Positions 27,936-63,180 of a stretch of DNA of 64,000 nt are shown piece after piece (position 1 is the stretch's first letter; each line of letters starts with the position of its first letter). This DNA comes from Limnochordaceae bacterium (GTDB lineage Bacteria > Bacillota > Limnochordia > Limnochordales > Geochordaceae): NCBI GenBank assembly GCA_014896295.1, contig JADBKR010000007.1, positions 62,001 to 126,000 on the forward strand. Direction: 5' to 3'. The position numbers were made by a program, and so were the translations under genes. Under the pieces are notes generated by a model, which saw only the letters and a list, made by a program, of their open reading frames with translations, had not been told where the DNA came from and did no database searches.

Positions 27936-28703
27936 TTAGCCGCTTTCCATCTCCCAACCCAACGCTTGGGCCCGCTCCACCCACTCCGGTGGGGCCCGGT
28001 CCTCCGAGACCGCCTCGAACCGCACCCGATCGCCCGGCTGCAGCAGCGCCGGCGGCTCCCGGGCGCTGTCCCACAGCTCCAGCCAGGTGCGCCCGATGAC
28101 CTGCCATCCTCCCGGCGCACCGCCCAGGGCGTAGATACCGGTCTGCTCGCCGCCGATGGCCACGGAGCCCGCCGGCACCGAGAGCCGGGGCGACGCCCGG
28201 CGGGGCGTGGCGAGAGCCGGGTCGAGCCCGCCGAGGTAGGCGAAGCCCGGCATGAACCCCAGCATGTAGACCCGGTATTCGCGCTCCGTGTGGCGGCGCA
28301 CCACTTCGCCGGGCGAAAAGCCGCTGTACCGGGCGACCTCCTCCAGGTCGGGCCCGTAGCACTCGCCGTAGACCACGGGGATGGTCACCCGGCGGCCCTC
28401 CGGTAGGCGGCGACGCCGGGCCCGGCTCACCGCCCGATCCAGGGCCGCGAGCACCGTCTCCCGCTCCGCCCGATCCGGATCCCACTGCACGAGGACCGAG
28501 CGGTAGGTGGGCACCGCCTCGACCATCCCCGGCACGGGCTGCTCCTCGAGGGCATGCCACAGCCGCAGCACCTGCGCGTGGGTCTCCGGATCGATCCGCT
28601 CGCCCCACTCGACCGTGACGGCTGCGTCCCCCGCCAGCCGGATACGGGGGTAACCCCCGGCCTCCTCGCCCCGGGCCGCCGCACCCGCCCGCCTACCCGG
28701 CAC
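27936..28703 (-). CDS. pxpB: 5-oxoprolinase subunit B (KipI family)
   Basis: A 255-residue partner of PxpC. Motifs are LAGDAAVTVEWGERID, VPTYRSVLVQWDP, VIPVVYGECYGPDLEEVA-type carboxyltransferase core, RVYMLGFMPGFAYLGGL and PRRASPRLSVPAGSVAIGG. The first 20 residues are an Ala/Arg-rich extension, so a later start is possible; GTG 28703 overlaps the glucokinase gene by 11 bp. No pxpA (LamB/YcsF-type) gene is in the window, so the complete 5-oxoprolinase is not encoded here. Confidence 0.92.
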   Translation of the reverse strand: MPGRRAGAAARGEEAGGYPRIRLAGDAAVTVEWGERIDPETHAQVLRLWHALEEQPVPGMVEAVPTYRSVLVQWDPDRAERETVLAALDRAVSRARRRRLPEGRRVTIPVVYGECYGPDLEEVARYSGFSPGEVVRRHTEREYRVYMLGFMPGFAYLGGLDPALATPRRASPRLSVPAGSVAIGGEQTGIYALGGAPGGWQVIGRTWLELWDSAREPPALLQPGDRVRFEAVSEDRAPPEWVERAQALGWEMESG

Positions 28704-29730
28704 GGCTCTCCACGCCCTCGAGCTTGCCGAGCTTCTTGAGGGCCACCGCCGCCGCCCCCACCACCCCGGCGTTGGGGCCCAGGACCGCCGGCACCAGGCG
28801 CGTCCCCTCGGCCGGCCCCGGCACCGCCCGGGTGCGAAGCTCCCGGCGGAGCGGCTCCATCATGGCCTCCCCGATGCGGGAGACGCCGCCCCCGATCGCG
28901 ATGGCGTCTGGGTCGAAGAGGTTGGCCAGGTTGGCGAGGCCCGCCCCGAGGTAAAGCCAGGTGCGGTCCAGCACCTCCTTTGCGAGCGGATCGCCCTGCC
29001 GGGCCGCCTCGGCCACCTTGCGGGCGTCGACCTCGGCGAAGCGCCCGCCCGCCAGCCGTACGAGCCGCGCGCCCGGCCGCTCGTCCGCCGCCTCGGGCGC
29101 CTCTCCCTCCCGCCAGCCGGCCTCCTCCAGCGCCTCGATCGCCCGGCGGGCGATGCCGGTGCCGGAGGCGACCGACTCGAGGCACCCGCGCCGCCCGCAC
29201 CCGCACAGCGGGCCGTTTTCCACGACGATCACCGTGTGGCCGATCTCCCCCGCCGCCCAGTGGGCGCCGCCGTAGATGGCGCCGTCGATGATGATCCCAC
29301 CGCCGATGCCCGTGCTGACCGTCACGTAGATGAAGTGCCGGGTGCCCCGGCCGGCTCCCACCCACCACTCGCCGAACGCGGCGGCGTTGGCGTCGTTCTC
29401 CAGGTAGACCGGCACGCCGAGCGCCGCCTGCATGGGGCCGACCACGTCGACGTGCCGCCAGCCCAGATTGGGCGCCGCGATGACCACGCCGCTGGCCGGA
29501 TCCAGCGGGCCCGGGCAGGCCACCGTCACCGCCTCCACGGCGCCCGGCCGCACGCCGGCCCGCCGGCACACCTCCCCGACCGACTGCGTCATCCGCTCGA
29601 TGACCGTCTGAGGGCCCTGCTCCGGCCGGGTCAGCTGCTCGAGGCGCTCGATCACCTGGCCCCGGTCGTCCACCAGCCCGGTGGCGATCTTGGTGCCCCC
29701 CAGGTCCACTCCCACCACCCACGTTTGCAT
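28693..29730 (-). CDS. ROK-family glucokinase
   Basis: It phosphorylates glucose or a related hexose. The 345 residues contain VGVDLGGTKIATGLVDD (phosphate loop), YLENDANAAAFGEWW (catalytic Asp), VTVSTGIGGGIIID, GEIGHTVIV and the ROK zinc motif CGCGRRGCLESVASG, then IAIGGGVSRIGE. ATG 29730 starts at the ATPase core. Its place directly after the phosphoglucose/phosphomannose isomerase gene fits entry of glucose or mannose into glycolysis. Confidence 0.9.
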   Translation of the reverse strand: MQTWVVGVDLGGTKIATGLVDDRGQVIERLEQLTRPEQGPQTVIERMTQSVGEVCRRAGVRPGAVEAVTVACPGPLDPASGVVIAAPNLGWRHVDVVGPMQAALGVPVYLENDANAAAFGEWWVGAGRGTRHFIYVTVSTGIGGGIIIDGAIYGGAHWAAGEIGHTVIVVENGPLCGCGRRGCLESVASGTGIARRAIEALEEAGWREGEAPEAADERPGARLVRLAGGRFAEVDARKVAEAARQGDPLAKEVLDRTWLYLGAGLANLANLFDPDAIAIGGGVSRIGEAMMEPLRRELRTRAVPGPAEGTRLVPAVLGPNAGVVGAAAVALKKLGKLEGVESRAG

Positions 29731-29786: not shown

Positions 29787-30920
29787 TCACCGCATGGTGG
29801 CCAGCTCGGCCTTGAGGCGGTCGATGAAGCGCACCGGCGTCGGGTCCACCCCCTTGGCGATGGCCAGGTAGAACGTGACGTAGTCTCCCAGGTGCAGCAC
29901 CGACAGGGCCCGGGCGAGATGCCCCTCGCCCTCGCCCCGCAGCGTCACCATGCTGGAGGCCCGCCCCTCCAGGATCCGCCTCGTCGCCTCGAATCGCCGC
30001 TCCATCCGCGGCGACTCGTCGCCCACCTCGAGCATGAGGATGCGAAGCAGCCTCGCCGCCGACGGCGGCGGCGCCTCCCAGCCCACCACTTCGTTGTGGT
30101 CGAGCTCGGGCAGGCTCGTCCAGTAGGCCGGGTGTTTGCTGTTTTCGTTGAACTGGCACTTCCACCGGTACGCCACCGACGCGCCGATGCCGCTCGAGCC
30201 GTACACGATGGGCACCCGGTCGACGAGCTCCAGCGCCTCCTGCTTGGCCGGGTTGTCCTTCAACGAACGGGCCATGGCGCACCGCTGCCGCACCGCCTCG
30301 ACGGCCCGGATCGACTGCTCGACGGGAGTCTGCATCTCGGGCAGCAGCCCGGCCGCCTCCAGGATCCCGATGGCCGCGAACAGCGAGTAGCCCAGGGCTG
30401 CCCGGGGCGGGAGCCCCGATGGGAGGCGGGCCGTGGGCCACCCCTTCTGCGCCGCCAGATCCCCCAGACGCCCGCCGCTCGTGAGCGCCACGATGCGGGC
30501 GCCCGCCTTCTGCGCCTGCTCCTGGGCCGCCAGCGTCTCCTCCGTGTTGCCGGAGTAGCTGGAGGCGACGAACAGCGTGTGCCCGTCGACGTAAGCCGGG
30601 ATGCGGTAGTCCCTGGCGACGGCCACGGGCACGGGCGAGAAGTCGGCCGCGATCGCGCCGACGAGATCGCCCCCGATGGCCGAACCGCCCATGCCGGCGA
30701 TCACCACGGACCGCCAGCCGCCCTTGGGGGGATCGGCCGCCGCCCGGCGGCCGATGTCGTAGCCTGCCTGGATCTGCTCCGTCAGGCCGTCGATGAGGCG
30801 CAGCATCCCGTACGGATCGAGCCGCGCCACCGCCGCCGGGTCGTCCAACCGCTGCCGGATCTCCTCGAGGGCCGCCGGCGTAAGGCCGCCTGCCTCTCCT
30901 GCAGCCCTGCTCTGCGCCAC
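29787..30920 (-). CDS. Bifunctional phosphoglucose/phosphomannose isomerase
   Basis: A SIS-domain isomerase of about 377 residues interconverting F6P with G6P and M6P. Seen are VVIAGMGGSAIGGDLVG, FVASSYSGNTEETLAA, the conserved NENSKHPAYWTSLPELDHNE with catalytic Glu and His, and a second SIS half. I chose GTG 30920 (VAQSRAAG) because AGGAGG lies about nine bases upstream; an ATG 33 bp further up would overlap the promoter. First gene of a ten-gene run. Confidence 0.92.
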   Translation of the reverse strand: MAQSRAAGEAGGLTPAALEEIRQRLDDPAAVARLDPYGMLRLIDGLTEQIQAGYDIGRRAAADPPKGGWRSVVIAGMGGSAIGGDLVGAIAADFSPVPVAVARDYRIPAYVDGHTLFVASSYSGNTEETLAAQEQAQKAGARIVALTSGGRLGDLAAQKGWPTARLPSGLPPRAALGYSLFAAIGILEAAGLLPEMQTPVEQSIRAVEAVRQRCAMARSLKDNPAKQEALELVDRVPIVYGSSGIGASVAYRWKCQFNENSKHPAYWTSLPELDHNEVVGWEAPPPSAARLLRILMLEVGDESPRMERRFEATRRILEGRASSMVTLRGEGEGHLARALSVLHLGDYVTFYLAIAKGVDPTPVRFIDRLKAELATMR

Positions 30921-30948
30921 GAGTAGGCCACCTCCTTGCACGCGCCCG

Positions 30949-30977
30949 ATCATATCATGGCCTGCCAGGCTGGCAAA
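30949..30977 (-). promoter_or_regulatory. Likely promoter of the isomerase-to-aldolase operon
   Basis: Minus-strand TTTGCC (30977-30972) and TATGAT (30954-30949) are 17 bp apart, 29 bp before the GTG start. The -35 box is weak and the -10 box good. Gaps downstream are at most 56 bp for the next ten genes. Confidence 0.5.
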
Positions 30978-31058: not shown

Positions 31059-32168
<1,110 letters not shown>

Positions 32169-32320
32169 TCGACCCCCACGCCTCCTCGGACGCCGCCAGG
32201 GCGGCCTTCGTCTCGACTGACGAAAGCCGTTTTCGACGCCCCTCCCCGCGCATTCCTGCCACGGGGAGCGTGTATACAAGATCCAGGCTACGCCCTCGGG
32301 TCGCCCCTTGCCCCTTCCTG

Positions 32321-32356
32321 CAAAACGAAGGAGCGGTGCGTCCGGTGCACCGCTCC
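32321..32356 (-). terminator. Intrinsic terminator of the first porin-like gene
   Basis: GGAGCGGTGC (32330-32339) pairs with GCACCGCTCC (32347-32356), 34 bp after the stop. On the minus strand it is followed by TTCGTTTTG. Confidence 0.88.
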
Positions 32357-32389
32357 TCGATTCCCGGACCCTTTCGGGTCAGTGTCGCC

Positions 32390-33941
32390 TCAGAAGCTCA
32401 CGCTCAGCGTGCTGGTGAGCTTGACGTCCTCGACCTTCGGCAGTACGACGACGCCGTTGGCATTCTTCACTTCGCCGGCGGTGGTGCTGTTGACGCCGAG
32501 GCTAACCGAGGCCTTGTCGGAGAACTTGTACGTAGCCTTAGCGCCGAACGTGGTCGAGCTCCCGGTGAGTTCCTCGTCGCCAGCCGTGTACGGATCAGTC
32601 TTGTCGACCCTGACGGTGTAGTTGGCGAGCTCTACGCTCGGAGACACCGTGAGGGCCGGCGTCACTGCGTAATCGAGTCCGAGGGACACCTTCGACGTGG
32701 CATAGAGGATGTCACCGATACCGACGCCATTCGCCCAGGTGTAGTCCCCGGCGGCGCCCAGCGCGTCGTCTTGGTCGGTCGTGTACCCGAAGCTGCCGTT
32801 CAACGTGACGGGCTCGATGGGCGAATACTTCGCCTCGCCGCTCACGTCGAGCGTCGCCTTGTCGTTCTCCTTTTTGGTCGTCGAGGAAACGCTCAGACTG
32901 GCTAGCTCGCCATAGGCTACCTTGCCGGAAATCTCTTGTGTGTGCTTATTCTTCTCCGTACCGCGGCCGTCGTTGGTGTACGCCACCTCGACGCTGACCG
33001 GGTCGATCGGTTTCACCTCGGCGCCGACACCAAACGCGAGCGAGTCCTTGTCCTTGCCCGCGTTCGTTCTGAAGGCCACGCCAGCCTTCGCTGTCAGGAG
33101 CCCGGCCACTGGCGCCTTGACGTCGAAGGACACATCCATGCTGCTCTCGGCGGCGCTCATATCCCCGTTCTGGATCGCTGCGCCCAGCGTGCCAATGCCG
33201 GCGACGTCCATATTGGCCAGCAGGGTCATCGCGTCACCCTCGGCCGTGTCGTAGTCGAACGTGAGGTTGGGCCCGAGAGCGCTGGACTCCACCCGGAACT
33301 TCGGACCGTCAACCTCGCCGGCGGAGGAGATGAACTCGAACAGGTCGGCCTTGTCTCCTGCGTCATAGCTATTGCCCCACGCGGTGAGCGTCAACGGGCC
33401 GGGCTTGACGCTGAGTTGGTACGCACCAAGCTGCGCGCCGATGACGGAGGGCCCGGTGGGGAAATCGTTCCACGATTTGTCCTCCGCAGCGATTCGACGA
33501 TCCAGTGCGGCTACGGTAGCGTCGCCAAGGGCCGGCCCGACGCCCGTAATGTCGCTAGGCACCTTCGGATCAGTAGAAAGAGGAGACGTCACCTCGTAGT
33601 AATTGTCATCGAGATCTTTCACATAGTACTTGCCATTTACGTTAATCCACTGCTTCAGGTACTTACCATCCGGGGACATCCCGTACGACGCCCCGGAGCC
33701 CAGAAGGCTGCCGATGTCCAGGCTCGCATTCCAGAGCTCGCCCTGGGCGGCCTTGAGGGTCAGGCTGGCCGTGTCGACGGATCCGTCTGAAGTTGATGCT
33801 CTTCGCGGTCAGGTCCTGCTCCGCCTTCAGCGTGAACGTGCCGCCGACGGACAGGGTCGGAGCCGGCTGCGCCTCCTCCGCCAGGGCCGGTGCCGCGACG
33901 ACCAGAAGGCCCAGCAGCACCACAAACAGAGTCTTGCGCAT
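32390..33941 (-). CDS. Secreted beta-barrel (porin-like) protein, one frameshift
   Basis: About 516 residues after repair. ATG 33941 follows GAAGGAGG and begins a clean signal peptide (MRKTLFVVLLGLLVVAAPALAEE). The mature chain is made of alternating amphipathic strands rich in Gly, Ser, Thr and Asp (VSLGVNSTTAGEVK, VTLNGSFGYTTDQ, KVSLGLDYAVTPALTVSPSV) and ends in LTSTLSVSF with a terminal Phe, the outer-membrane insertion signature. One extra base near 33788 breaks the frame after KSINF; the next frame resumes DGSVDTASLTLKA. No SLH domain is seen. I do not recognise a named family. The region is visibly less GC-rich than its neighbours. Confidence 0.68.
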
Positions 33942-34369
33942 CGTGGTCCTCCTTCTGACGTATGAGTTGCTCAGGAACGGGATCCCGTTGACGTCGATGA
34001 CGCGCGTACCGATGTCGGACACACGACCCGCAGGCCCGCCGCTCCTGGCCGGACGAGCCGCGGGGAAGTCTCCACGTTTCCTTCCTCGCACACACCCAGC
34101 CCGAACGAGCGGGCCCCCTCCCCCGGTCGCGGCCGTGCGCAACCGGCCCTCGCGGCGCTGGTCGGCCCCCCTTCCTCCCGCAGACTGGGTCCGGGGCGCA
34201 CCACCGGGAAAGGCTCGTCGCGAGTGGGACGGGCTCCCACCGCTGCGTGGGGTTTCGATGCGAGGCATAGAATTCCTTCTCAGGATCTGTCAGCCCTGGG
34301 GAAGGATCGCGTTTGCCCGAGGCACCATGCCCGGGGCTGTCGAGGCCTGCCGCACGTCGACACGGTCCC

Positions 34370-34413
34370 AGGAAAAAGAGGGAAGGCCCCGGGCCTTTGC
34401 CCGGAGCCTTCCC
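34370..34413 (-). terminator. Intrinsic terminator of the second porin-like gene
   Basis: GGGAAGGC (34380-34387) pairs with GCCTTCCC (34406-34413), and an inner CCGGGC/GCCCGG stem closes a 4-nt loop. On the minus strand the stem is followed by TCTTTTTCC. Confidence 0.9.
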
Positions 34414-34517
34414 CCGCCGGGCCTGCCGGTGCGGAGGCGGAACGCCGGCCACGGTGCTTGCCCCCTGAAGGCAGGCCCGGCGCGCTGCGGCCAGGCGCCG
34501 CAGCGTGGAGTCGCTCG

Positions 34518-35876
34518 TCAGAACTCCGCCTTGAGGCCCGCCTCGGCCCAGGCGCCCTTGGCCGTGTCGTAGTGGATCCCCGTCGACAGGCCGTTGGGAG
34601 CCGTGTAGCTCACGTCCGCCCCGTAGCTGAGCGAGCTGTCGGCCGCCCGCTTCACCCGGGCCGCGACCCCGATGCCGGGCAACTGGGGCACCGCGTTGAC
34701 GGTGGCCTCGGCGCTCAGCTCGTGGCTGATGCCTGCGGGCTCGATGGTCGCCTCGTACTTGGGCGTGACGGTCATGCCGGTGACGGCCATCGGATAGGCC
34801 ACGGAGACCGTGCTCTTCTGGAGGGCGACGCCCTCGTTGAGCCGGAAGTCGCCGCTCGCCGCCAGCTCGAAGCCGTCGAGGGTCGTGCTGGCCGCGACCG
34901 AGGCGTCACGGTTGAAGACGTTGGCCTTGTAGTAGTGATCGAGGCTCGCCTTCAGGTCCACGCCCTGCTGCACCGTGTGCACGCCGACCACGACGCCCCG
35001 CTCGTCCTTGTTGTTGGCGAGCCAGTCGATGCGGGTGGTCTCGTCGGCCGGGTCGTACTCGGCCTTCTGATAGGCCGGGTCGAAGCCGGGCTCGACGTTG
35101 CGGTACTCGGCGTTGAGGGTCAGGTTGGGCATGACGGCGGCCTCGGCGTCGAGCCGGGTCATGGCCGCCGGCCGCGCGCCCTCGCCGGAGCGGGCGTAGG
35201 TGCCGCTCACGTTGATCCAGGGCATCGGCATGCCGGAGGCGCCGATCTCCCAGTCGTGGCGGCCGTTGACGTTGACCGCGGTGACGCTGCCGGTGGCGCC
35301 GAGGAGCTCGGCGCGTACCTGGGCGCCGGAGACGGTGAACGGATCGCCGTACTTGGTGACGTTACCCGCTGCGTCCTTCTCCAGCGCCGCGGCGTCCCGG
35401 CCCACGAAGGCCGATACCGAGACCGGGCCGTAGCCGAGGCCGGAGATGGACAGGCCCTCCCGGTCGAAGGTCGCGATGTAGGGCGAGAGCCCCACGTCCA
35501 GGCTACCGAGGCGGGCGGTGGTGTTGGGGCCGCCCTCCCAGAGCTTGCCGTTGGCCTCCACGAACGCCCGCTCCACCGAGATCTGCCCGAGCCCGGGCCC
35601 CGGGGCGAACGGCATGCGCGCCTCGAGCGGCGCCAGTTGGAGGAACGCCCGCACGCCGCGCTCGGGGCTGCCCATGACGGCGTTGAGCTTCAGCGTGGTG
35701 GCGGCCGACACGCCCGCCGGGTTGTCCGGGTCGGGCGCATGGTCCTTCATCCACTGCTGCTGGCGCCAGGTCAGGTTGCTCTCCATCGAACCGCTGATCT
35801 GGAGGTCTTGGGCCAGCGCCGGCGCGGCCATGGCGGCCACCAGCACGGCCGAGACCACGAGAGCCAGCTTTTTCAT
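34518..35876 (-). CDS. Secreted beta-barrel (porin-like) protein
   Basis: 452 residues, intact. Signal peptide MKKLALVVSAVLVAAMAAPALA is followed by a mature N-terminus QDLQISGSMESNLTW. Repeated strand-turn-strand segments such as PNLTLNAEYRNVEP, VDLKASLDHYYKANV, MTVTPKYEATIEPAG and SLSYGADVSYTAPNGLSTGIHYD alternate polar and aromatic residues. The chain ends AEAGLKAEF with a terminal Phe. This pattern fits an outer-membrane barrel and is unexpected in a monoderm. It is transcribed alone, with its own terminator, 577 bp upstream of the first porin-like gene. Confidence 0.68.
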   Translation of the reverse strand: MKKLALVVSAVLVAAMAAPALAQDLQISGSMESNLTWRQQQWMKDHAPDPDNPAGVSAATTLKLNAVMGSPERGVRAFLQLAPLEARMPFAPGPGLGQISVERAFVEANGKLWEGGPNTTARLGSLDVGLSPYIATFDREGLSISGLGYGPVSVSAFVGRDAAALEKDAAGNVTKYGDPFTVSGAQVRAELLGATGSVTAVNVNGRHDWEIGASGMPMPWINVSGTYARSGEGARPAAMTRLDAEAAVMPNLTLNAEYRNVEPGFDPAYQKAEYDPADETTRIDWLANNKDERGVVVGVHTVQQGVDLKASLDHYYKANVFNRDASVAASTTLDGFELAASGDFRLNEGVALQKSTVSVAYPMAVTGMTVTPKYEATIEPAGISHELSAEATVNAVPQLPGIGVAARVKRAADSSLSYGADVSYTAPNGLSTGIHYDTAKGAWAEAGLKAEF

Positions 35877-36926: not shown

Positions 36927-37517
36927 TCATTCGACGACGATCTCGACGCCGGTGTCGTCTTCGTCGCGCACCTCCAGGATCTTGCCGTACGCCCCCCACT
37001 CGATCTGCGCCAGGAGCTCCTTCAGGTCGATCCCTTCGAGGTGCCTGGCCGCCGACCTGGGCACGAGCCGCAGCGCCGAGTGGGCCAGGGCGATCGGGAT
37101 GTTGAGGCGCATCCGGTCCTCCCCCTCTTCGAAGACCCGGATCTGCAGCGTCCTGCCTCGCACCTCGCCGCCCCGCGGGCCGGCGCCGCCCTGTGCGCGG
37201 GTACCGCCGGGCGTACCCATCCCGCCCGGCGCGCCCGGAGCCGGCGCGAGCGCCTCGAGCAGCCGGAGCGCCTCCTCCGGGCGCAGGCGCCCCGCCTCCA
37301 CCATCCGGAGAATGCGCAGGCGGTCGTCGGGCGGCTCGCCCTCACCCGTGCCGCCGGACGGCGCGGCTTTCCCGGCGCCCGGCGAGGCTTCTTCCGGGCG
37401 CGGCGGGGCCTGCGGCAGAGGCTTCTTCTCGCCTTCGTCCCCTGCCCCCCGCCGCTCGCGGGCGCCGGCTACGCCGCCTGGCTCCTCTCGTTCGTCGACG
37501 GGTTCATCGGGCCACAT
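36927..37517 (-). CDS. SHOCT-like domain protein
   Basis: 196 residues, cytoplasmic, no signal peptide. The N-terminal third is low-complexity Pro/Gly/Glu. A SHOCT-like helical pair (LRILRMVEAGRLRPEEALRL) lies at about residues 67-90, and after a Gly-rich linker a beta domain follows (LQIRVFEEGEDRMRLNIPIA, HLEGIDLKELLAQIEWGAYG) ending VRDEDDTGVEIVVE. The C-terminal half resembles a domain found beside YvlB-type proteins. Function unknown; it sits between the YvlB-like and YvlD-like genes. Confidence 0.72.
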   Translation of the reverse strand: MWPDEPVDEREEPGGVAGARERRGAGDEGEKKPLPQAPPRPEEASPGAGKAAPSGGTGEGEPPDDRLRILRMVEAGRLRPEEALRLLEALAPAPGAPGGMGTPGGTRAQGGAGPRGGEVRGRTLQIRVFEEGEDRMRLNIPIALAHSALRLVPRSAARHLEGIDLKELLAQIEWGAYGKILEVRDEDDTGVEIVVE

Positions 37518-37548
37518 GCGTGCCGCCCCCTTCCTCCCCGCACCGGCT

Positions 37549-38771
37549 TCACTCGCTCGTGATGCTGGCGCTGCCGGTGATGGTGCGCACGTCGACGTGC
37601 AGCGTGCGGGCCGACTCGGCGAGGTGCGGGCTCTGGTGTTCGACCTGCTGGCGGCCCATGCGGGCCGTCTGGGTGATGAGCACCGTGCCGGGCACCTCGA
37701 CCTGCGTGGAGCCCCAGTTGGTCGACGCCCGCAGCGACAGCCCGAGCTCCTTGCGCTCGGCCGCCTCGCGCACGGCCGCCGGCAGGATGACCCGCACGCC
37801 GCCGTTGGACGCCTGGACGTCGAGGCGCTGGTGGGCGGCGCCCTCGGGCCGCCACAGCGGCCGCAGCGTCACGGAACCGTTGGACGTCGACACTTCCATC
37901 TCGGCGCCGCCCACGCTGCCCGTCACGGCGCCGTTGGACGAGCGGGCCTCGAGCACGTCGGCCTGCACCCCGTCCAGCACCAGGGAACCGTTGGAGGTGC
38001 GGGCCACCACCCGCTGCGCCTCGACCTGGGAGAGGTCGATGCGCCCGTTGCTGCTGCGCACGTCGACCGTCGTGCCGCGCACCCCCCGCACCGCGACCGA
38101 CCCGTTGGACGTCTCCACCTCGAGGCGCACCGTCACGGGGGCAGGACGAGTTCGAGGTCGGCGCTGCCGATGCTCCAGCTCTCGGCGCGGGCCGTGAGGC
38201 CGGTGGGGCCCTGGGTCACGGAGACGAGGTGCTGGCCCTGGGAGCGGGCTTCCTCGGGCGTGCGGGCGCGGACGCGCTTTCGCACCGTGAGGCGCCAGGT
38301 GCGGCCGGCCTGGGGGTCGGTGTGGACCCGCACCGTGCCGTTGGGAGTCGCCAGGTGCACCTGGGGCACCGCGCCCTCGGCGAACTCGCCGGCCATCTCG
38401 TCGGTGAAGGCGTGGGCCGGCAGCGCCAGCGTCCCGAACTGGCCGAACGCCTGGGCGATGCGGTCGGCCACCGTGCGGCCCACGTCGGCCATCCGGTCGG
38501 CCACGTCGCCCACCTTCTCGCCGACGTCGGCGGAGGCGACGACCCGCTGGACCCGCTGGGCGAACTCGTCGGCGAGCTCCGAGACCCGCGAGCCGAACTG
38601 CTCGGCCCAGCGGCCGAGGTCGACGGTGCGTTCGGAGCCGGGCTCGGGGGCCCCCTCGGCGGCCGGCCCCTGGAGGGCCTTCAGCAGTTCGACGGCCTGG
38701 TCGGGCGTGATCTTGCCCTCTTCGAGCATCTTCAGGATCATGCGCCGTTCTTCGGCGACGTCGTCAGCCAT
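37549..38771 (-). CDS. YvlB-like SHOCT + DUF4097 beta-helix protein (one frameshift)
   Basis: About 407 residues after repair. The N-terminus carries a SHOCT-like motif (RRMILKMLEEGKITPDQAVE), then a helical linker, then DUF4097 with at least six repeats of the T/SSNGxV kind (VETSNGSVAVRG, VRSSNGRIDLSQ, ARTSNGSLVLDG, ARSSNGAVTGS, VSTSNGSVTLRP, VQASNGGVRVIL), which should fold as a short beta-helix. The apparent stop after LELVLPP is caused by five C where six are expected (38138-38142); with six, the chain reads LPPVTVRLEVETSNG. Bacillus YvlB and LiaX relate to envelope stress. Confidence 0.8.
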
Positions 38772-38843
38772 GCTTGATCACCTTCCTGTGATTGGGTCTC
38801 CCTGTCGACCTTCGCCCTCGAGGCCCTGGCGGCCTCGGGGCGG

Positions 38844-39347
38844 TCAGCCTCCTCGGGACTCCTCGCCGGCGCCGCCCGGAAGCCCGCGGAGGCGGGCGAG
38901 CGCCTGGTCGACGGTGATTTCGCCCCGTTCCAGGGCCTCGAGGATCCGGCGGCGCTCCGGCAAGGCCACGACGGCAGCGGCGAGGGAGGGAGGCGCCTGC
39001 CGGGGCGGCGGGGGTGGCGAAGGCGGCGGCGGAGGCCCGGGCTCCTCGACCCGGCCGACGACCTCGCCCCGCTCCAGCCGGTAGCCGAGCGCCTCGATGA
39101 CCGACTCGAGCCGGGCACGGATGGCCGGGTAGGAGAGACCGAGCATCCGCTCCATCTCCCGCAGGTTGCCGCGGGCCGCGATGAAAAGCTCGGCGAACTC
39201 CCGCTGTTCGGCGCTCAGGGCGCAAAAAGAGCAAAGGGCGAACGACCCCTCGAGCGCCGTGCGGCAGGTCGGGCAGCGGAGGCGCTCCACCTCCAGGCGT
39301 GCGCCGCAGACGGGGCAGATACCCGGCGCCACCGGTTTGCCCGGCAT
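38844..39347 (-). CDS. DUF2089 zinc-ribbon/HTH protein with C-terminal SHOCT-like motif
   Basis: 167 residues. Two CxxC pairs (CPVCGARLEVERLRCPTC) form a zinc ribbon and are followed by CSFC, then a helix-turn-helix-like segment (GNLREMERMLGLSYPAIRAR) typical of DUF2089. A Pro-rich linker leads to RRRILEALERGEITVDQALA, a SHOCT-like motif. ATG 39347 follows GGAAGG. The zinc ribbon plus HTH suggests a transcription regulator of this operon; that is inference. Confidence 0.82.
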   Translation of the reverse strand: MPGKPVAPGICPVCGARLEVERLRCPTCRTALEGSFALCSFCALSAEQREFAELFIAARGNLREMERMLGLSYPAIRARLESVIEALGYRLERGEVVGRVEEPGPPPPPSPPPPPRQAPPSLAAAVVALPERRRILEALERGEITVDQALARLRGLPGGAGEESRGG

Positions 39348-39379
39348 CCGTGCGATCCTTCCTTTCCTGCAGCCGGCCG

Positions 39380-39628
39380 TCAGAGGAGCGGCCGGAGCGT
39401 GCCCGGCCCCTTTAGGGTGCCCCGGCGCAAGCGGGCGACCAGCGCCCGCAGGGCGGCGGCGAAACGCCCGGCCGGCCCGCCGGTGCGGGCGGGGCCATGG
39501 CCTGGCCCGCCGCGACCGTGGCGGCCGCGTGCCCTCCGGATCTCCCGTTGGAGGGCGGCCTCCTGCCATTGCTCTTCCATCCTGGCCCGGGCCAGGCGGT
39601 AGTCAAACGTGTGTCCTGTGAAATCCAT
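39380..39628 (-). CDS. Small basic protein, first gene of the envelope operon
   Basis: 82 residues, unrecognised. ATG 39628 is preceded by GAGGTGGG at good distance and lies 59 bp after a promoter -10 box. An acidic-basic helical N-terminus (DYRLARARMEEQWQEAALQR) is followed by a Gly/Arg-rich middle and a basic C-terminus. An in-frame ATG at 39715 lies inside the -35 box and is rejected. Confidence 0.55.
   Translation of the reverse strand: MDFTGHTFDYRLARARMEEQWQEAALQREIRRARGRHGRGGPGHGPARTGGPAGRFAAALRALVARLRRGTLKGPGTLRPLL

Positions 39629-60198: not shown

Positions 60199-63180
<2,982 letters not shown>

Follow-up and report, generated by a model that had tools for sequence, protein, structure and literature searches.

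Candidate outer-membrane porins without an SLH domain, encoded near sugar-uptake genes in a member of the Limnochordia

The genome of Limnochordaceae bacterium (Bacillota; Limnochordia; family Geochordaceae in GTDB; assembly GCA_014896295.1) contains a stretch of 64,000 nucleotides, positions 62,001 to 126,000 of the forward strand of contig JADBKR010000007.1 and referred to below as the window, in which two minus-strand genes, here called B and A, lie head to tail with A downstream of B. They head a run of genes in the order B - A - UgpC - PGI - ROK, the last three being an ATP-binding cassette (ABC) transporter ATPase, a phosphoglucose isomerase (PGI), and a likely sugar kinase (Table 1). 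B and A are probably outer-membrane porins that admit sugars for these adjacent uptake and glycolysis genes. Limnochordia have already been described as diderm in two published accounts (PMC11456536, PMC11448272), so the outer membrane itself is not new; as far as searches show, what has not been described is a sugar-linked porin family lacking the S-layer homology (SLH) domain. The source genome (2.89 Mb in 8 contigs, 97.3% complete) is G+C rich, with 70.9% G+C in the window, and two cultivated Geochordaceae strains have 69.5 and 71.0% (PMC11456536).

Table 1. Features at the B-A locus, in window coordinates
Feature	Position	Strand	Remarks
Putative porin B	34518..35876	-	452 amino acids, intact; signal peptide about residues 1-22; C-terminal AGLKAEF; modeled as an outer-membrane barrel of 24 strands
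Most conserved DNA stretch of the B family (search pattern)	35494..35540	-	codes for W-x-G-G-P-x-x-x-[TA]-R-L-G-[SD]-L-D
Likely intrinsic terminator	34378..34415	-	strong hairpin and T run, roughly 100 nt past the stop codon of B
Putative porin A	32390..33941	-	signal peptide (start 33941) and barrel (32390 to about 33,808) lie in separate, unjoined frames here; a same-species genome has the gene intact
UgpC/MalK-type sugar ABC transporter ATPase	31059..32168	-	Pfam ABC_tran, OB_MalK, TOBE_2; NCBIfam UgpC above cut-off
Bacterial-type phosphoglucose isomerase (bact-PGI)	29787..30953	-	PF10432, E 4.6e-50
ROK-family protein, likely sugar kinase (glucokinase)	28693..29730	-	PF00480, E 9.4e-77

Gene B, its family and its predicted fold

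Protein B begins with the signal peptide MKKLALVVSAVLVAAMAAPALAQ, which qualifies as a Sec signal on sequence-based grounds, and ends in phenylalanine, the residue that the initial annotation had read as an outer-membrane sorting signal in both proteins. Across the family, 70 of 71 complete B-family frames are Phe-terminated, the exception being a second, lower-scoring copy at one locus (L167), and 65 of the 71 end in G-x-x-[hydrophobic]-x-F; among A-family proteins, all 26 end in Phe or Tyr. Frames of both families were chosen with profiles that take in the C-terminus. A crude signal-peptide rule (the authors' own) is passed by 57 of 71 B frames. Hydrophobic alternation, scored against 500 shuffles, gave z 4.9 for B and 3.6 for A, compared with 2.3 for the barrel of the genome's own BamA and 0.4 and 0.9 for the cytosolic neighbors UgpC and PGI, respectively.

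The claim that neither protein carries an SLH domain holds: Pfam searches up to E 1 gave no SLH match in B or A, and none was listed for the 18 members of the B-family alignment (A5) up to E 0.1. The only NCBIfam match of B was to the porin model DESULF_POR1 (residues 1-48, E 5e-4, 19 bits against a cut-off of 250). Pfam matches among the 18 family members included one to Porin_4 (E 7.7e-5) and one to SlpA_C (E 0.0025).

AlphaFold2 modeling of B with 17 relatives gave a mean predicted local distance difference test (pLDDT) of 78.6 and a predicted template modeling score (pTM) of 0.69. The model contains 24 predicted strands of at least 8 residues between residues 26 and 451. In Foldseek searches the best matches were usher pores (E 6.2e-11), followed by MOMP, maltoporin, OmpU, and OmpM1, and the fold matches listed for B are outer-membrane barrels, both bacterial ones and mitochondrial VDAC. 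VIA-align superimposed model residues 18-452 on PapC with Z 19.3 over 376 residues (root-mean-square deviation, rmsd, 4.6), and on the Occ (OccK) channels with Z of about 16 over at most 292 residues (rmsd about 7); LamB and OmpM1 are not named among the VIA matches listed for B. The model is read here as a large barrel. Closed models of 12 to 18 strands had been named as support for the outer-membrane reading: B models as a probable barrel whose fold matches are outer-membrane barrels, with 24 strands instead of 12 to 18, and the model of A was unusable.

Larger paralogs of B may exist in other members of the class. Three loci (L195, L197, and L198, in genomes G252, G253, and G254) hold tandem pairs of proteins of 578-639 amino acids with signal-peptide-like starts, from one family of the same order, and the B profile matches near both ends of these proteins with a longer insert between.

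Occurrence with BamA and relation to known barrels

A single-sequence search found B homologs in 36 of 199 genomes of the phylum, spread over 15 families, and BamA was found in 49 of the same 199. All 36 B-bearing genomes encode BamA and none of the 150 BamA-less genomes encodes B (hypergeometric 5e-29, with genomes treated as independent). The B family may thus serve as a sequence marker for an outer membrane. Within the class, profile A5 matched 55 of 72 genomes, 51 of them at E below 1e-25.

The conserved stretch listed in Table 1 was also used as a DNA pattern. It recovers 13 of 33 test loci (30 of the 33 being B loci), and it located 20 stretches in the contigs of 84,980 species represented by one genome each, all 20 of which encode a B protein (blastp E 3.5e-13 or better). 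The sequence titles of 19 matches name Bacillota, Firmicutes, Clostridia, or Limnochordia, and one reads only 'bacterium'; because the sensitivity of the pattern is modest, this confinement to Bacillota-type titles does not show absence from other phyla.

The outer membrane proposed in the initial annotation is well supported by the rest of the genome, which encodes BamA together with Lpx, Lpt, Skp, and TamB proteins and has the gene set of a lipopolysaccharide-type diderm envelope. Its single Omp85 protein (E 1.5e-51) has POTRA domains and is best named BamA by NCBIfam (E 1.5e-69, below the model cut-off). Around bamA on contig C8 lie genes for TamB, OmpH/Skp, LpxD, an LptF/G-family permease, an LptA-like protein, LpxC, a FabZ-like protein, LpxA, LpxI, and a partial LpxB match. 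For lptD, which had been named as a further indicator, there is a weak candidate: an 833-amino-acid protein near bamA has a partial match far below the cut-off (E 7.7e-11), and the Pfam model of the LptD C-terminus matched nothing in the genome, a weak negative in that the same model matches only 2 of 14 control genomes. The listing of Limnochordia among Firmicutes with an outer membrane agrees with two papers (PMC11456536, PMC11448272), one of which reports an outer membrane seen by transmission electron microscopy in both cultivated Geochordaceae strains (PMC11456536).

SLH proteins are present in this genome as well. About 22 kb from the outer-membrane cluster are two that exceed the Pfam cut-off (358 and 453 amino acids), and with them is a 629-amino-acid protein that no Pfam model matches; its N-terminus is SLH-like, sharing 49% identity with the 358-amino-acid protein over 47 residues, and its last residues are QFNLRF. 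Contig C5 carries a third SLH match, a weak one. The 358-amino-acid protein (contig C8; L059:8441-9517) begins with a signal-like stretch, carries one SLH domain and a long central part, and closes with the C-terminal hydrophobic helix VALVIVGLLAVAGIVVK, a layout resembling that of Thermotoga Omp-alpha, in which the tether is separate from any barrel.

Chaperone-usher pores such as FimD and PapC have 24 strands with plug and periplasmic domains; they are the best fold match of the B model, but B is a 452-amino-acid chain modeled as a barrel only, with no plug or periplasmic domains seen in the model. Maltoporin LamB, a trimer with a greasy slide, is encoded next to a MalK-type ATPase, and the LamB and OprD/Occ families have 18 strands. 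B shares their fold class (LamB Foldseek E 3e-7, and the Occ alignment given above) but has 24 predicted strands and no sequence similarity to the maltoporin family in Pfam or PDB profile matches. Thermotoga Omp-alpha combines an SLH domain with a coiled coil. In that system this helix-anchored protein accompanies a separate barrel, Omp-beta, predicted to have 22 strands (PMC9388160), and the present genome likewise has a protein with SLH domain and helix. The SLH gene here lies near the outer-membrane cluster on another contig, however, not beside B.

B also resembles the OmpM/SlpA type, represented by Veillonella OmpM1 and Deinococcus SlpA, with a C-terminal outer-membrane barrel in diderm Terrabacteria (Foldseek of B against OmpM1, 8bys, E 4.3e-7). 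OmpM/SlpA-like proteins in Limnochordia have already been published (PMC11456536, PMC11448272, PMC9388160, PMC10628300). The link of B to SLH-type barrels comes from three proteins of other class members (L199, L204, and L205), whose barrel part matches the B profile (domain E 4e-9, 3e-4, and 3e-6, respectively), whose N-terminus is SLH-like by similarity to the Pfam-confirmed 358-amino-acid protein (E 8e-8 to 2e-10), and which end in SIRF or SIKF. The 629-amino-acid protein of this genome resembles them in its C-terminal part (E 3e-14 to 2e-19), and its direct hhalign comparison with the B profile is weak (14%, E 0.002). In contrast to OmpM/SlpA, neither B nor A has an SLH match, and B lacks a stalk, its first strand following directly on the signal peptide, at residue 26; 24 strands are modeled, compared with 16 reported for OmpM1 and 28-30 for SlpA (PMC10628300, PMC9388160). 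Judging from these similarities, B appears to be an SLH-free, untethered, distant relative of OmpM-type barrels, with descent possible in either direction.

Gene A and its allelic island

Signal peptides had been claimed for both proteins, and this stands for B; for A it fails as a single chain in this assembly and is recovered in a genome of the same species. The signal peptide of A, MRKTLFVVLLGLLVVAAPALAEE, starts at 33941 in a different frame from the barrel, which ends in STLSVSF at 32390 and is open only to about 33,808, with three stops between there and 34,000. In the same-species genome (G190, one contig of 3.31 Mb; locus L033) A is a single open frame, and alignment of the two copies shows a one-base frame difference near 33,790. 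A programmed frameshift was discarded as an explanation, given the single uninterrupted frame of the same-species copy. Either a mutation or an assembly fault may have caused the disruption.

The A family is more widespread than it appeared. A first search found A in 2 of 199 genomes, and the idea that it is unique to its species was overturned by a profile search and synteny. A two-sequence profile matched 13 of 72 class genomes, two strongly (the window genome and G190) and 11 weakly and partially (E 5e-8 to 3e-3); the weak matches are frames of 340-506 amino acids, all 10 complete ones ending in Phe and 10 of the 11 having a signal-peptide-like start. At 25 of 70 loci, less than 1.3 kb downstream of B, there is an A-family gene in the same orientation. 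Of 26 A-family C-termini 24 are Phe and 2 Tyr, and 22 of 26 frames pass the crude signal-peptide rule, the window copy being among the four that fail. The A and B profiles align with each other (hhalign 97.6%, E 3e-12, 222 columns), with the signal-peptide region making up part of the alignment.

Between the window genome (G000) and G190, A is 72-89% identical in 250-nt segments (94% at the signal-peptide end), and its surroundings are 92-100% identical, mostly 97-99%. Synonymous divergence (dS) is 0.441 in A, compared with 0.052 in B and 0.015 in UgpC, a jump that points to allelic replacement rather than fast point mutation. The ratio of nonsynonymous to synonymous divergence (dN/dS) of A is 0.316, so the barrel frame has been under selection. 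G+C content varies along the locus, at 61-65% in A, 65-68% in UgpC, and 70-71% in B. This low-identity island (window positions 32250-33750 compared with locus L062) may have arisen by recombination or by exchange of surface barrels under phage pressure.

Sugar genes beside B, the proposed role and its alternatives

The neighborhood of B was surveyed in 70 B-bearing genomes, window included, comprising 34 of the 36 from the phylum search and 36 of 48 further class genomes with a profile match. The two left out of the former were a 3.4-kb contig (G157) and a B fragment at a contig end (G082, locus L095), and those left out of the latter were mainly matches near contig ends. With UgpC called at a minimum of 55% identity to the window protein, the ATPase lies within 7 kb of B on the same strand at 50 of 70 loci; among the 52 loci whose flanks measure 1.5 kb or more on each side, the number is 43. 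At least one of UgpC, PGI, and ROK is nearby at 57 of the 70 and 49 of the 52. Many loci have B and UgpC followed by PGI, ROK, or both, and in other families UgpC is ahead of B. In a control set of 20 PGI loci from BamA-less genomes (38 such genomes have PGI), UgpC, B, or A was nearby in none and ROK in 12. In this sample, then, PGI and ROK occur together more broadly, and it is the ATPase-porin part that accompanies the outer membrane.

A role for these proteins can be proposed on this basis. Sec would export B and A through their signal peptides, and Skp and BamA would recognize the C-terminal strand (of the G-x-x-V-x-F type in B) and insert the barrels. B, as a large, untethered barrel without an SLH domain, would let sugars or oligosaccharides reach the periplasm; there, binding-protein ABC importers could take them up, driven by the adjacent MalK/UgpC-type ATPase, and the adjacent ROK kinase and PGI would pass them to glycolysis. 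A would be a second, faster-diverging barrel of the same locus, distantly related to B, with alleles exchanged between strains. Computation shows the export signal and modeled barrel of B, the C-terminal sorting motif, the confinement of B to BamA-bearing genomes, and its conserved placement near the ATPase; we infer pore activity, sugar specificity, use of the neighboring ATPase, and oligomeric state, as well as the fold and role of A.

A number of observations weigh against this proposal. The window protein B has no Pfam family match up to E 1 and no close relative among solved structures, and its profile matches to PDB sequences (up to E 1) include no porin. The N-terminal parts of its model have lower pLDDT, and as usher barrels top its fold matches, the fold does not say sugar porin. 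A, with its signal peptide and barrel in different frames, is not one secreted chain as assembled, and its single-sequence model without relatives reached pLDDT 33 with no usable fold. Thirteen of the 49 BamA-bearing genomes lack B at the search threshold. No UgpC, PGI, or ROK gene is near B at 13 of the 70 loci; at 10 of these the surveyed sequence reaches no more than 1.2 kb downstream of B, or no more than 0.7 kb upstream of it, and at three (L085, L160, and L173) it extends farther. UvrC is present at 16 of 35 B loci, so the link to UgpC could be an old conserved neighborhood. Finally, of 70 B frames tested, 44 have a terminator-like hairpin (by the authors' own rule) no farther than 200 nt from B, a limit that the average over 10 mononucleotide shuffles reached in no frame; with a hairpin so common after B, B and UgpC need not be co-transcribed. 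In the window, the 61 nt around the hairpin (34365-34425) fold at -43.7 kcal/mol (z -4.25). B is probably often its own transcript, and its link with UgpC is one of neighborhood rather than a proven operon. Between 31000 and 36700, a sigma-70 scan found no site and terminator-like sites numbered 3, compared with 3.0 in shuffles; Rfam gave nothing at gathering scores between 28000 and 40000.

Some of these points also fit B and A being general, non-specific diffusion porins or surface barrels without a sugar role, kept near sugar genes by an old conserved block. The UvrC neighbors and the common hairpins agree with that idea, and an allelic island at A would be expected of a surface protein seen by phages; it is nevertheless unlikely, given that the ATPase stays near B despite changed gene order (upstream in some families, downstream in others), that family-4 glycosidase genes and LacI regulators adjoin B in other families (5 and 3 of 35 loci, respectively), and that the ATPase is absent from the vicinity of all 20 control PGI loci. 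Far less probable still is that both are wall-linked S-layer or surface proteins and not membrane barrels. S-layers have been reported in cultivated Geochordaceae (PMC11456536), and both proteins are strand-rich with signal peptides, that of A being out of frame here, but this explanation was rejected on the absence of an SLH domain, the barrel fold of B, the C-terminal Phe, and the restriction of B to BamA-bearing genomes among the 199.

For A there is the additional question of whether it is a pseudogene in this strain, leaving only B to work. This is a serious possibility, if the less favored one: the frame is broken between signal peptide and barrel and no second copy of A was found in the genome, yet the barrel frame is uninterrupted and under purifying selection relative to the intact same-species copy (dN/dS 0.32), intact A-family genes are kept in relatives, and a sequencing or assembly fault could account for the break.

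The initial annotation is partly confirmed in what it observed and supported in its interpretation. Its suggestion of a separate porin group in this lineage is supported; the B family has neither a Pfam model nor an SLH domain, and searches of open-licence papers in PubMed Central, judged by titles and the openings of abstracts, brought up no SLH-free porin family for Limnochordia and no porin other than the OmpM/SlpA type. Tentatively, and with the balance somewhat against so full a statement, B may be the founder of a porin family in diderm Bacillota: a sugar channel of 24 strands that lacks SLH, either descends from an OmpM-type barrel or is ancestral to one, and is paired in part of the class with the strain-variable barrel A. 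If true, this lineage would have separate genes for nutrient entry and for wall tethering, contrary to the OmpM linkage proposed for diderm Firmicutes, and bacteria losing an outer membrane need not have given up both their tether and their sole nutrient pores at once. The OmpM-linkage claim becomes directly testable in another diderm Bacillota lineage, where one genome has SLH-bearing envelope proteins as well as a member of a widespread porin-like family that lacks SLH and lies near a sugar ATPase; nutrient entry in this member of a mostly one-membrane phylum need not depend on the wall-anchoring pores studied so far.

Two further features adjoin B. At four loci (L016, L024, L026, and L029) an opposite-strand gene beside B belongs to one family, and its L026 member is an L,D-transpeptidase with LysM and peptidoglycan-binding domains, which might relate to envelope linkage. 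Upstream of B in the window (36927-39569) is a run of DUF2089, SHOCT-like, and DUF4097 genes that is partly conserved beside B in other class members.

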